From: Oscillospiraceae bacterium
GTDB taxonomy: Bacteria; Bacillota; Clostridia; Oscillospirales; Ruminococcaceae
Length of the DNA stretch: 64,000 nucleotides
NCBI GenBank assembly: GCA_015067175.1
Contig: SVMX01000005.1
Span: forward strand, 1 to 64,000
Reading direction: 5' to 3'
Both the position numbers and the translations under genes were made by a program. Below are positions 36,512 through 62,612 of the stretch, piece after piece. The notes below the pieces were generated by a model that made no database searches, was not told where the DNA came from, and saw nothing but the letters and a program-made list of their open reading frames with translations. Every line of letters starts with the position of its first letter. Position 1 is the stretch's first letter.

Positions 36512-37480
36512 TCAGTTGTGCGACATTGTTTCAATTCGCTCGTCAAGATGTCTTGCGAATGAATAAGTGTAGGGCGTGAAATATTTGCCCCAGAAGTTCA
36601 GCGCCGTGGGGTTCATGGTCTCGCAGTCAACGCCGAGGTGCGTTATGCCCTCGCCGCTCAGAGTATCGCGGATATGCGAAAGCAGAGCTTGAGCTATCCC
36701 CTTTCCACGGCAGTTTTCGTCAAAATAAGCGCCGCAGATATTTGCCATCTTGTCGTGCTCTGTGATGAAGTTTTCGGCGGTCACGTCTACCGAGATAAAT
36801 CCTATCAGCTTTTCGCCCGATACAGCGGCAAACACACGCATACTTTCCTTGTGAAACCAGTGCTTGTAGCGTTCCATATCCGTTGGGCAGAAGATCGGAG
36901 CTTTTTCGAGATGCTTTACCAAACCCATTTGCAGTGCGCTCACTTTTTCAAACTCTCCAAATGTAAGCTCAATAAAGCTCACGTCGTCTGCGCTATGTTG
37001 CAGTGAAAGCTCAGAGATCCTGCGCACCGCGTCACTGCAACGTATACCGAAGCCGTTGAAAACAAACGCTCTTGCAGTGTCCTCGTCGTGAGCGTATCTT
37101 GTAACGGCGCAGCTGAACACGCGATTTTGAACGAATTCCTGTGCTGTGCTTTCAAAAAGCATGGAAGCAAGTCTTTGGCGGTCTGCGTATTCGTAAGAAA
37201 ACGCACTTCCGCCAAGCGGTGAGTATACACCTTTTACGTTTCCGAAAAAGCCGTCCCACGGGCCGCCGAAAAGAAGATAGCCGACCATTTTTCCGCCGCA
37301 GAAAGCCGCCTTTCCTATCGGCTGAGAGCTGAGCCATGTCAGCATTCCGTTGAGCTTTTCCGAAAAATCGCCGTTTGGGATATCGGGGCATGAGCTTCTC
37401 TCTGCTTCAAGCTCGGATAGTGCAAGATTTACCGCTTCGTCAATATGTTTTTCTGTGAATTTTTCAAATATAATGTTCAT
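36512..37480 (-). CDS. GNAT family N-acetyltransferase, two-domain
   Basis: A 322-residue protein with two GNAT-like halves. The C-terminal half has the clearer CoA-binding segment (ANICGAYFDENCRGKGIAQALLSHIRDTL) and ends LNFWGKYFTPYTYSFARHLDERI. The N-terminal half is degenerate. The substrate is unknown. It overlaps the rsgA stop by 4 bp and is likely co-translated with rsgA. Confidence 0.75.
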   Translation of the reverse strand: MNIIFEKFTEKHIDEAVNLALSELEAERSSCPDIPNGDFSEKLNGMLTWLSSQPIGKAAFCGGKMVGYLLFGGPWDGFFGNVKGVYSPLGGSAFSYEYADRQRLASMLFESTAQEFVQNRVFSCAVTRYAHDEDTARAFVFNGFGIRCSDAVRRISELSLQHSADDVSFIELTFGEFEKVSALQMGLVKHLEKAPIFCPTDMERYKHWFHKESMRVFAAVSGEKLIGFISVDVTAENFITEHDKMANICGAYFDENCRGKGIAQALLSHIRDTLSGEGITHLGVDCETMNPTALNFWGKYFTPYTYSFARHLDERIETMSHN

Positions 37481-38430
37481 TTTCTATACCCCGCTTTCAT
37501 TCTCTTTGCTTTGAAATTTTCGTCATAAAGCCTTTGGTACAGCCGCCAGCGCTTTTCGTTCAGCTCGCCTGCTTCTAGAGCTTTTTTTACTGCGCAATTC
37601 GGCTCGGTGTCGTGTCTGCAATTGCTGAAACGACACTGCGAAAACAGATCGGTGATATCGGAAAAGGTGTTGTCAATGCCCTCGTCGATATCGCAGACGC
37701 CTATCTCTCTCATTCCCGGAGTGTCGATGACAGTAACGCCGTTATCAAGCTTGAAAAGGTGTCGGTATGTCGTGGTGTGGCGGCCTTTTCCGTCCTCCTC
37801 TCGGATACTGCTTGTTTTCATGACCTCTTTGCCTGCGATAGCGTTCAGCATAGTGGATTTACCCACGCCCGATGAGCCGATAAGCGCGATAGTAACTCCG
37901 CTTCTGAAATACTTCTGCAGCTCCGACATACCCGCGCCTGTAACAGAGCTTATTGCTATTACATCGGTCTTGTCTGAAACGCTTTTCACCTCTGCGATAT
38001 ATCCGCTCACATTTTCGCACAGGTCAGCCTTGCTGAGTATCACCACAGGCGTGCCGCCGCCTTGTACGGTTATTGCGATGTAGCGCGCAATTCTGCCTGC
38101 GTTGAAATTCTGATTGAGCGAGGTCACAATAAACACATAGTCGAAATTTGCCGCCATAGGCTGCTCGACCAGTGTTTTTACATATCCGTCCGCATGGCCG
38201 CTTCGGTCGGGACGGGAAAGATACGTTTTTCTTTCGAGTATTTTCTCTATGAGCGAGTCGCCGTAGGGGTTGAATATCACCTCAACATAATCGCCCACAA
38301 CGGGATATTCACCGCTGTTATAAAGATTGCCTTTAAGCTTTGCGTCTATCTCGCCCATTTCGCCTATCAAGGTGTAGCGTTCACGCTGCACCTCTGATAC
38401 TCGCATGATATTATTTTCGTTAGTTTTCAT
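37477..38430 (-). CDS. rsgA: Ribosome small subunit-dependent GTPase A
   Basis: A 317-residue circularly permuted GTPase that checks late 30S maturation. It has an N-terminal OB fold (about 10-70), the G4 motif LSKAD (132-136), then the P-loop GSSGVGKS (185-192) and G3 DTPG (236-239). The zinc ligands C266, C271, H273 and C279 follow. The ATG at 38430 has AAAGGA about 12 bases upstream; a long in-frame N-terminal extension reaching 38610 runs through leader hairpins and is not used. It is preceded by an apparent attenuator. Confidence 0.94.
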   Translation of the reverse strand: MKTNENNIMRVSEVQRERYTLIGEMGEIDAKLKGNLYNSGEYPVVGDYVEVIFNPYGDSLIEKILERKTYLSRPDRSGHADGYVKTLVEQPMAANFDYVFIVTSLNQNFNAGRIARYIAITVQGGGTPVVILSKADLCENVSGYIAEVKSVSDKTDVIAISSVTGAGMSELQKYFRSGVTIALIGSSGVGKSTMLNAIAGKEVMKTSSIREEDGKGRHTTTYRHLFKLDNGVTVIDTPGMREIGVCDIDEGIDNTFSDITDLFSQCRFSNCRHDTEPNCAVKKALEAGELNEKRWRLYQRLYDENFKAKRMKAGYRK

Positions 38431-38490
38431 TGTAATAACCATTCCTTTCAATTCGAAGCTTGGGCGGTGTTGCCCTTGTTTTTTCTTAGC

Positions 38491-38644
38491 ATTACCTCGG
38501 CAGTATCCCGAGAAACAAAGCTGCGGCATAGAAAAGAACGGACAGCCCAAAATCTGATTTTGGGCGCAAAAAAGCCGCAGCAAAATTCGCTGCGGCATAA
38601 ACATTTTCACACAAAAATGGTTACTTCAATACTGCCGAGGTAAT
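38491..38644 (-). promoter_or_regulatory. Putative attenuator/antiterminator leader of rsgA
   Basis: On the minus strand, the 3' end of a small leader ORF contains ATTACCTCGGCAGTAT (plus 38629-38644), perfectly complementary over 16 bp to ATACTGCCGAGGTAAT (plus 38491-38506) just before the rsgA RBS region. Enclosed are a terminator (38568-38596), a 9-bp hairpin GCCCAAAAT/ATTTTGGGC (about 38543-38563) and a second GCCGCAGC (38520-38527) that could pair with the terminator's 3' arm instead. This is the layout of ribosome-controlled attenuation. Confidence 0.6.
38568..38596 (-). terminator. Terminator inside the rsgA leader
   Basis: On the minus strand, GCCGCAGC (plus 38589-38596) pairs with GCTGCGGC (plus 38574-38581) and is followed by six T residues (plus 38568-38573). 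It lies between the leader ORF and rsgA, so read-through must be allowed under some condition. Confidence 0.85.
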
Positions 38645-38686
38645 TCTGCTCTCACTGTTAAATTTTCTTGTCATTGTGTAGGTCAT
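38621..38686 (-). CDS. Putative 21-residue leader peptide of rsgA
   Basis: A small ORF from ATG (plus 38684-38686) to TAA (plus 38621-38623). The peptide begins MTYTMTRKF and ends ITSAVLK. GAGG lies 8 bases before the ATG, and the ORF is about 60 nt after the predicted transcription start. Its last third is one arm of the 16-bp inverted repeat, so a translating or stalled ribosome would change folding of the leader. There is no run of a single amino acid codon, which argues for stalling by drug or ribosome state rather than classical amino-acid attenuation. Confidence 0.55.
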   Translation of the reverse strand: MTYTMTRKFNSESRITSAVLK

Positions 38687-38749
38687 CTTGTTTACCTCGC
38701 TTTCTTGATTTTTATGGATATAAAACAGGTGTTTTCGTATCCGCTTATT

Positions 38750-38778
38750 AGTATATCACCTGAAAACGGATTTGTCAA
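38750..38778 (-). promoter_or_regulatory. Strong promoter of the rsgA leader
   Basis: On the minus strand, -35 TTGACA (38773-38778), 17-bp spacer, -10 TATACT (38750-38755). The start is near 38743, giving a 5' leader of about 310 nt before rsgA. Confidence 0.8.
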
Positions 38779-38974: not shown

Positions 38975-39961
38975 ATGTCAAGATTTTTCAATAAGCTCTG
39001 TCCTGTTTGCAGGCAGCACTTTAATGAATCGGACGATATCGTCGTATGCCCCGAATGCGGTACGCCGCACCACAGGGCTTGTTATAATAAGCTTGGTACC
39101 TGCGGCGTGGAGAGCGCTCATGCAGAGGGCTTTGAGTGGAATGGAAAGCTCCCCGACGAGCAGCCCGAACAGCAGCCTGAAGCTGAGCAGAATGCGGCAG
39201 TACAGGAGCCGAGCGTTTTTTCGGCAGAGAACGTAGACCCTCACCACGCGGAATATCCGGGCGGTATCGGATATTCGAATACTTCCGATGAGGGTGATAA
39301 CAACAGCGAGGCAAATAGCGAACCTTATAATGATATGCAAGGACACCCCTTTGCTGAGTTTTACAGTCATATGCAGGAGCTTACAAGCGACGAAACACGC
39401 GGCGCTGACGGCGTTTCCAGCAAAGAGCTGAGTCATTTTGTGGGCACTTCGGTGTTCCACTATGGGCAGGCTTTTTCCGCATTTCGCACAGGCGTGCACA
39501 AAAACGGCACTATCCAGCCTGTGAAGCTGTTTTTGAACTTCTGCGCGGGTTTTTTCAAGCCTGTACATCAGTTCTACCGCAGAATGGACGCTCTTGCAAT
39601 TGCGGTGCTGCTTCTTGAGGGTATTATGCTTATCCCCGATGTTCTGCTGTATTACTATCCCAAATCTGCGCTCACCATCAGTATGCAGTCTACTCTTCAG
39701 ACGTTGTCGGTAGTGGGTACGGTTTTAAGCGTGGGACTTACTATACTGCTGTGCGTTTTCGGGGATTATTTATACTACAGGTTCTGCGTGCGCAGGATAA
39801 AAAAGATACGCCAAAGCTATGACGACGGCAAAGCAGAGGGCTACTATGAGGCGCTGACCGAGTGCGGCAGACCTTCAAAGCTGAGAGCTGTTATCGGTAT
39901 CCTTGCAAGCCTTATTGTAAACCAGCTCGTGCTGCGTTTGCCAGGGCAGTTCCTGATGTAA
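38975..39961 (+). CDS. RING-finger-like zinc membrane protein
   Basis: A 328-residue protein. The N-terminus has a treble-clef/RING-like zinc site: CPVC (about residues 9-12), CPECGTPHHRACY (about 26-38) and a further Cys, like the prokaryotic RING family. An acidic Gln/Glu-rich linker is followed by two membrane helices (AIAVLLLEGIMLIPDVLLYYY and LSVVGTVLSVGLTILLCVFGDYLYY) and a cytosolic tail. It could scaffold ubiquitin-like or degradation functions, but no activity is shown. It has its own promoter and is followed 15 bp later by a GT2 gene. Confidence 0.7.
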   Translation: MSRFFNKLCPVCRQHFNESDDIVVCPECGTPHHRACYNKLGTCGVESAHAEGFEWNGKLPDEQPEQQPEAEQNAAVQEPSVFSAENVDPHHAEYPGGIGYSNTSDEGDNNSEANSEPYNDMQGHPFAEFYSHMQELTSDETRGADGVSSKELSHFVGTSVFHYGQAFSAFRTGVHKNGTIQPVKLFLNFCAGFFKPVHQFYRRMDALAIAVLLLEGIMLIPDVLLYYYPKSALTISMQSTLQTLSVVGTVLSVGLTILLCVFGDYLYYRFCVRRIKKIRQSYDDGKAEGYYEALTECGRPSKLRAVIGILASLIVNQLVLRLPGQFLM

Positions 39962-62248: not shown

Positions 62249-62264
62249 ATCTTATTTAAAAAAA

Positions 62265-62612
62265 GTGACTCCATCGATAAGCCGAGTTCTGTCGTGTATG
62301 ACCATCTATCTAGCCCTGCCGTCGCCGACAGGGTCAAGCCACCTTACAACGGGGCGCGCCGAGCAGACGCGTTGTCCCCCGCACCAATCGGTGTTGCATC
62401 GGATAGGGTTTACATGGCAGTGCAGTCACCTGCACCCCGGTGAGCTCTTACCTCGCCTTTCCACCCTTACAGGAGTGCGATGCTCCTGCGGTATATCTCT
62501 GTTGCACTAGCCCTAAGGTCGCCCTCGGCTGACGTTATCAGCTACCCTGCTCTATGATGCTCGGACTTTCCTCATTGCACTTTCGTGCCCCGCGGTCATA
62601 TAATGAAGTCAC
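62265..62612 (-). ncRNA. rnpB: RNase P RNA, bacterial class A-like
   Basis: On the minus strand the conserved segments appear in order: GAGGAAAGTCCGAGC (CR I), CGAGGGCGACC, GGGTGGAAAGGCGAGGTAAG and, near the 3' end, ACAGAACTCGGCTTAT (CR V). The ends pair as P1: GTGACTTCAT (plus 62603-62612) with ATGGAGTCAC (plus 62265-62274). The length is about 348 nt. With RnpA it matures the 5' ends of tRNAs. Its promoter and terminator are visible. Confidence 0.95.

Follow-up and report, generated by a model that had tools for sequence, protein, structure and literature searches.

A 64,000-nucleotide (nt) stretch of DNA from an Oscillospiraceae gut bacterium (assembly GCA_015067175.1, contig SVMX01000005.1, positions 1 to 64,000; hereafter the window) carries on its minus strand a gene for an RsgA-family GTPase (37477..38430; 317 amino acids, aa; PF03193, E 3.5e-46), a gene for a GNAT acetyltransferase whose start overlaps the GTPase stop codon (36512..37480; PF00583, E 4e-13) and, ahead of both, a leader with a promoter, a small open reading frame (ORF) and an intrinsic terminator. 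A first-pass annotation of this DNA had placed rsgA under a leader-peptide attenuator that would close a feedback loop on 30S maturation. The comparison of related leaders described below supports the attenuator, but the gene is not the housekeeping rsgA. Its product does belong to the RsgA family (TIGR00157, 164.6 bits, cut-off 100), with P-loop, HTTT and DTPG motifs and a Cys/His zinc site that align to a solved RsgA (E 6.4e-36). The canonical rsgA of the same genome lies at another locus (G000:C11), flanked by genes that we named by eye as PASTA-kinase-like and thiamine pyrophosphokinase-like, and the two products are 34% identical. A maximum-likelihood tree separated 42 window-type from 26 canonical proteins into two clades (branch support 100/100); we name the window-type clade RsgA2 and the gene rsgA2. 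Since the regulated gene is an RsgA2 paralog and not the housekeeping 30S-maturation rsgA, the feedback loop is left without a basis beyond family resemblance.

The gene rsgA2 is accessory and, as befits such a gene, sparsely carried: a close form occurs in 3/43 genomes of the genus, members with 42-52% identity in 16/196 other genomes of the family, and RsgA2 at E up to 1e-45 in 24/294 other order-level genomes. A search for related loci returned three, two of which are the sequences of the loci in genomes G303 and G304 of the genus, the third being a distant partial match.

The leader, all of whose parts lie on the minus strand, begins with a promoter (38750..38778; TTGACA and TATACT at a spacing of 17, with TG before the second hexamer and 11/12 consensus matches) that has the top score among the promoter-like sites of a 6-kb region in which such sites are about as numerous as chance predicts (8 against 7.1 expected). 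A hairpin predicted by folding near the expected transcript start (38716..38742) is followed by the leader Shine-Dalgarno (SD) region CGAGGUAA (38692..38699), which in folds is the 5' strand of a helix termed P1, and by a leader ORF of 21 codons (38621..38686; peptide MTYTMTRKFNSESRITSAVLK) with GAGG 8 nt before its ATG. Codons 14-20 of this ORF constitute element 2 (38629..38646), which folds and leader comparison mark as an anti-SD-like hub. Between the ORF stop and the terminator, a further predicted hairpin (38597..38624) would form the apical part of a proposed antiterminator, whose 3' strand (38583..38597) pairs in folds with 38646-38633. The terminator (38568..38596; GCCGCAGCGA-ATT-TTGCTGCGGC, 10 pairs with a loop of 3, then T6 and GCGCCC) ranks first among the terminator-like sites of the 6-kb region, which number 14 against 7.2 expected. 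Thus, the window leader has the SD-led ORF and the intrinsic terminator ahead of the gene by which we recognise an attenuator. The leader fold is more stable than its shuffles (z -4.87; z -4.65 for the portion up to the terminator), and Rfam gave no match on it at gathering score. Over 17 loci at E up to 1, Rfam gave three matches, all at chance level, among them BSnc120 over a related leader (L033) on the opposite strand (23.6 bits, where the gathering score is 114).

Downstream of the terminator lie a second GCCGCAGC (38520..38527) and the 3' strand of a 16-bp stem, P3 (38491..38506; partner 38644-38629), which together with its partner makes a perfect inverted repeat with arms 122 nt apart; none of 2000 dinucleotide shuffles of the 314-nt leader reached a repeat of 16 bp, the longest in any shuffle being 13. 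All of these parts had been correctly located by the first-pass annotation, namely the promoter, the ORF with its GAGG, the terminator, the second GCCGCAGC and the 16-bp repeat, but it missed that the same ORF segment also pairs with the leader SD and with the terminator 5' arm. Its suggestion that the second GCCGCAGC captures the terminator 3' arm did not hold up, as this element is downstream of the terminator and missing from one related leader (L128). Neither the second GCCGCAGC nor the 3' half of the 16-bp repeat can decide termination, as both lie beyond the terminator; we rejected the former as an antiterminator and the latter as a termination switch.

A DNA search of the 43 genus genomes matched six, of which four carry the window-type leader (ORF, terminator, T6GCGCCC and 16-bp stem) and two gave 20-23-base stretches inside other genes. 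Two of the leaders, L032 and L033, coincide in sequence with the G303 and G304 loci, and the fourth, L128 in genome G302, is 75% identical and stands directly before a GNAT gene that is 66% identical to the window GNAT. No RsgA2 was found in G302 (the sole match is the canonical copy, in a genome that is 92% complete), which argues that the leader travels with the operon and not with rsgA2 as such. Both the genes that follow these leaders and the DNA ahead of them differ. Their peptides (MTYTMTRKFNSESRITSAVLK, MTYTMMKNENRMGRITSAILK, MTYTMMKNENSMSRITSAVLK and MTYTTKNSNTISIITSVVLK) all start with MTYT and end in ITS[AV][VI]LK, codons 2 and 3 change synonymously, and an AAC codon in the otherwise variable middle of the ORF is kept in all four (codon 10; codon 9 in L128). 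The terminator is likewise kept in 4/4 leaders, and the 5' hairpin is predicted in each of them with a largely different sequence; similar promoters, also differing in sequence, are visible by eye upstream of L032, L033 and L128. The hairpin between stop codon and terminator has another sequence in L128, yet is predicted there too. A model of the window-type leader (R2), run over 297 family genomes (five of them from the genus), returned its own leader and two matches to the terminator hairpin only, and a plasmid blastn search with the window leader and with one leader of a second type (family A, below) gave no match.

Element 2 has three alternative partners: the leader SD (P1, 8-10 bp), the terminator 5' arm (antiterminator, CUCGGCA:UGCCGcAG plus GAAUU:AAUUU) and the downstream copy (P3). 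For P3, 60/64 cells are paired over the four leaders when counted straight from the sequences, MAFFT having misplaced the L128 half, and 12 consecutive pairs are present in every leader; there are two compensatory double changes, one from C-G to U-A and one from G-C to A-U, and the stem covaries while its loop varies from 103 to 122 nt. The first-pass annotation had named loss of the ORF or the stems in relatives as the outcome that would overturn it; they are kept in four genomes. P1 is paired in 34/36 cells with one compensatory double change, and its duplex energy was reached by 28/2000 shuffles. The antiterminator core is paired in 27/28 cells. Taken together with the shuffle controls, the covariation makes P3 the best supported helix, P1 the next and the antiterminator the least.

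We computed the effect of ribosome position by folding RNA truncated before the terminator 3' arm with a ribosome footprint (-15/+17) masked. In free RNA, P1 had a probability of 0.94 in the window, 0.97 in L032 and 0.95 in L128, and the antiterminator core one of 0.02 in the window, 0.63 in L032, 0.01 in L033 and 0.42 in L128. Placing the P site at codons 10-11 gave a core probability of 0.35-0.38 in the window, 0.89-0.90 in L032 and 0.86-0.92 in L033, and placing it at codons 8-10 gave 0.75-0.99 in L128, so that at these mid-ORF positions the core probability exceeded that of free RNA in 4/4 leaders. From codon 12 onward (codon 11 in L128) it was 0.00 in all four. At codons 1-3 it was 0.73-0.86 in the window (its maximum), 0.20-0.67 in L033 and 0.99 in L128. 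The same picture held with two other footprint sizes, the positions being offset by one or two codons.

These results lead us to lean, by a modest degree, towards a ribosome-mediated transcription attenuator that would drive an accessory rsgA2-GNAT operon of a stress or antibiotic-defence type. In free RNA, P1 would hold element 2 and the terminator would form, keeping the operon OFF. Early arrest of a ribosome, at the start codon or with the P site near codon 10-11, would open P1 and leave the antiterminator core free; element 2 could then pair with the terminator 5' arm while the 3' arm has yet to be transcribed, which would let RNA polymerase read through (ON). A ribosome that moves beyond about codon 12 would cover element 2, and termination would ensue. 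Early arrest would thereby be coupled to read-through and completed translation to termination, the inducer presumably being a ribosome-targeting drug or another cause of arrest. P3 could form only in read-through RNA, where it may lock element 2 away from the leader SD and keep the SD open; it is equally conceivable that it serves RNA processing or masks a downstream start.

Several observations weigh against this mechanism. Only four leaders are available, in three of which the stretches around element 2 and the terminator are near-identical, and a covariation shuffle control with four rows is weak (132/500 equal P1 plus terminator). The antiterminator is plausible, but its core shows no covariation and its energy is within chance, being reached by 316/2000 shuffles of the window leader and by 29-32% of 1000 shuffles for each of the other three. 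In L032, the core probability drops from 0.63 to 0.13-0.14 when a ribosome stands with its P site at codons 1-3, and in free L033 P1 has a probability of just 0.07. Free L032 and L128 form the antiterminator core (0.63 and 0.42) alongside P1, so the two are not strictly exclusive. Once the full terminator is transcribed it prevails at equilibrium wherever the ribosome stands (0.87-1.00), and the switch must therefore be kinetic, with the choice made during transcription. The leader peptide contains no known arrest motif.

Leaders of the same general anatomy recur before other RsgA2 genes. From 45 RsgA2 and 29 housekeeping rsgA loci, we dropped L033, L012, L013 and L080 (no ORF by the motif used) and L098 (short) from the former and L021, L024 and L025 (no ORF) and L027 (short) from the latter. 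A strict terminator within 420 nt upstream was found for 19/40 RsgA2 genes compared to 0/25 housekeeping rsgA genes, and a terminator with a preceding SD-led small ORF for 16/40 versus 0/25; genes closely following another gene make up 24/25 of the housekeeping and 12/40 of the RsgA2 set. The count of 19 is low because the strict rule misses leaders that are visible by eye (for example L003, L076, L084 and L085).

In many relatives the leader is of another type. Leaders of a second type, family A, have an SD-led ORF of about 9-15 codons (mostly M[ST]V..V[IVA]xx-stop), an AAACYGAATA box, one or two terminators, in several with T5GCGCCC, and a segment, ACCTTTCGTGAATACTG, that can pair with the leader SD. 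Family A resembles the window type in its SD-led short ORF, SD-complementary segment, terminator(s) and, in several members, T-run with GCGCCC ahead of RsgA2, but differs in sequence and peptide and in that the SD-complementary segment follows the ORF, whereas in the window it lies within it. When a ribosome was placed at codon 1 of family-A leaders, in an analysis that used terminator arms named by hand, upstream pairing of the terminator arm rose in 10/12 and fell in two; neither inspection by eye nor folding resolved the exact family-A antiterminator. The pattern ACCTTTCGTNAATACTG had two matches in 297 family genomes, both before RsgA2, and five in viral contigs with no leader visible around them. 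A third type, family B (L016-L018), has by eye an anti-SD-like CACCTCCTTCC between leader ORF and gene SD and looks like translational attenuation. Farther afield, RsgA2-clade genes in a Listeria monocytogenes record (L133, near 2429) and in Acetoanaerobium noterae (L132, near 2453) have by eye an SD-led short ORF just upstream, followed in the latter by a terminator-like hairpin.

A covariance model built from 13 family-A leaders (R1) matched 26 places in 22/295 order-level genomes, four of the matches (L099, L100, L102 and L103) being leaders used in the model, and found no match in the window genome. Twelve of the places lead into RsgA2 operons, seven directly, three via an RNHCP-domain gene, one via an APH gene and one via methyltransferases. 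Nine precede other genes, namely two ABC exporters, MutS2 (485.6 bits, cut-off 400), an APH kinase, a CAAX protease, a P-loop ATPase, a GNAT-like acyltransferase with a CotS-like kinase gene, a GNAT/beta-lactamase-fold protein and one unknown; the matches before one ABC exporter, the APH kinase, the GNAT fusion and the P-loop ATPase are weak (E 2.5e-4 to 0.002). Two further places run off contigs and three are unclear. MutS2 is a ribosome-collision rescue factor. One order-level genome, G381, holds five R1 matches (L105, L121, L122, L123 and L124), before MutS2, two ABC exporters, the GNAT-like acyltransferase with the CotS-like kinase gene, and the P-loop ATPase, which together are a candidate ribosome-stress regulon; the ATPase and one exporter rest on E 2.5e-4 to 3e-4.

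The alternative that survives best, which we nevertheless consider rather unlikely, treats the leader ORF as an independent small gene that brings its own terminator, with rsgA2 expressed by constitutive partial read-through, free of ribosome control. The strength of the terminator, an antiterminator not beyond chance and the lack of direct evidence of regulation all suit this explanation. It is opposed by P3, a stem with compensatory changes that connects the ORF with the stretch ahead of rsgA2, by the occurrence of the leader in surroundings that differ on both sides, and by the recurrence of terminator and SD-led ORF before RsgA2 and not before housekeeping rsgA. Moreover, the scan of the 6-kb region listed no minus-strand promoter-like site between the terminator and rsgA2.

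We also judge it unlikely that the leader senses 30S occupancy, such that element 2 mimics the 16S anti-SD tail and a 30S subunit on the leader SD, rather than peptide arrest, frees element 2 and turns the operon ON. In the window type, element 2 (TTACCTC) does complement the leader SD; its counterparts in two other designs are CCTTTCG and CACCTCCTTCC, and such segments resemble the tail of 16S rRNA. A ribosome at codon 1 raises the core probability in three of the four window-type leaders (from 0.02 to 0.86, 0.01 to 0.67 and 0.42 to 0.99), in the window to the highest value of all positions, and the rise in upstream pairing in most family-A leaders points the same way. L032, however, behaves in the opposite manner (0.63 to 0.14), as do the two family-A leaders that fell, and the conserved peptide ends would be needless for a sensor of the SD.

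A classical amino-acid attenuator would share the anatomy, and one invariant Asn codon (AAC) stands mid-ORF, but it is very improbable: no codon in the four ORFs is repeated in a row more than twice, which leaves no run of regulatory codons and led us to reject it, and the controlled genes are not biosynthetic. The macrolide arrest motif is R/K-X-R/K, and a macrolide (+X+/RLR) leader was rejected as none of the four peptides contains it. It is scarcely credible that the perfect 16-bp repeat with arms 122 nt apart is the terminal repeat of a small inserted transposon and the leader its debris, given the few matches in the 43 genus genomes and with R2 and a stem that covaries around a loop of 103 to 122 nt.

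A same-strand neighbour starts within 160 nt in 23/41 evaluable other RsgA2 loci (43 given, L012 and L097 dropped, the window itself excluded), and these neighbours comprise seven GNATs, four methyltransferases, two APH-type kinases, two ABC ATPases, one RNHCP protein and seven other or unknown proteins; the GNATs of L091 and L092 were assigned through likeness to that of L090, and that of L032 through likeness to the window GNAT. On a plasmid of Roseburia sp. 831b (L131:2371-3951), a GNAT domain and an RsgA2 GTPase are fused in one protein of 526 aa, followed by GntR and ABC transporter genes. RNHCP-domain genes adjoin RsgA2 in L112, L114, L115 and L081, as assigned by Pfam for L112 and L081 and by likeness for L114 and L115. 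In the window, the divergent neighbour of the leader (38975-39961, plus strand) encodes a protein with an N-terminal prokaryotic RING-finger domain (PF14446) that is membrane-like by eye. The sole Rfam match in the window at gathering score is a class A RNase P RNA (62262-62611, minus strand; 269 bits).

The mechanism proposed for rsgA2 is of a known kind. In erm, vmlR and msrD attenuators, ribosome position on the leader ORF selects the RNA structure, and tet genes are also controlled by attenuation. The targets of the former are rRNA methylases or ABC-F proteins, unlike rsgA2, and the R/K-X-R/K arrest motif does not occur in the window leader. Five tet ribosome-protection loci of the same family (L059-L063) share the leader peptide MRQGILK; by eye, their leaders resemble the window type in a very short SD-led ORF, a downstream segment complementary to the ORF, and a terminator and T-run with ATGCCC or GCGCCC before the gene, but show no sequence similarity to it. 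The closest parallel is hflXr (lmo0762) of Listeria monocytogenes, a resistance GTPase paralog under drug-responsive attenuation by the rli80 leader (PMC6310831). It is like rsgA2 in being a paralog of a housekeeping ribosome-associated GTPase behind a short leader ORF with alternative RNA structures, but the rli80 peptide has 14 aa and an RLR motif whereas the window peptide has 21 aa and no RLR, and the drug response of hflXr has been shown (PMC6310831) whereas that of the window leader is a prediction. The GTPase families also differ, as HflX splits ribosomes and RsgA binds the 30S subunit. No description of an rsgA/YjeQ attenuator was found in the literature searched, whose coverage was partial and included few subscription papers, and within it neither the target clade nor the leader sequences appear to have been described.

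Family, regulation and neighbours suggest that RsgA2 is a protection or rescue factor acting on the 30S subunit, and its leaders suggest that it is an inducible ribosome-protection factor, as we predict. More tentatively, RsgA2 may be an unrecognised class of inducible 30S protection or rescue GTPases, a small-subunit equivalent of HflXr that occurs here and there across several families of the order. The leaders that control it would sense through an anti-SD segment carried on the mRNA and would come in at least three designs that share no sequence likeness, one of them controlling a regulon that also takes in MutS2, ABC exporters, APH-type kinases and GNATs. Leader-peptide attenuators flag genes that are required only under ribosome trouble, and their presence before RsgA2 but not before housekeeping rsgA marks the RsgA2 clade as a probable inducible defence factor, comparable to HflXr. 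The two leader families, which have no Rfam 15 match, could thus be used to find more ribosome-stress genes in gut Firmicutes.

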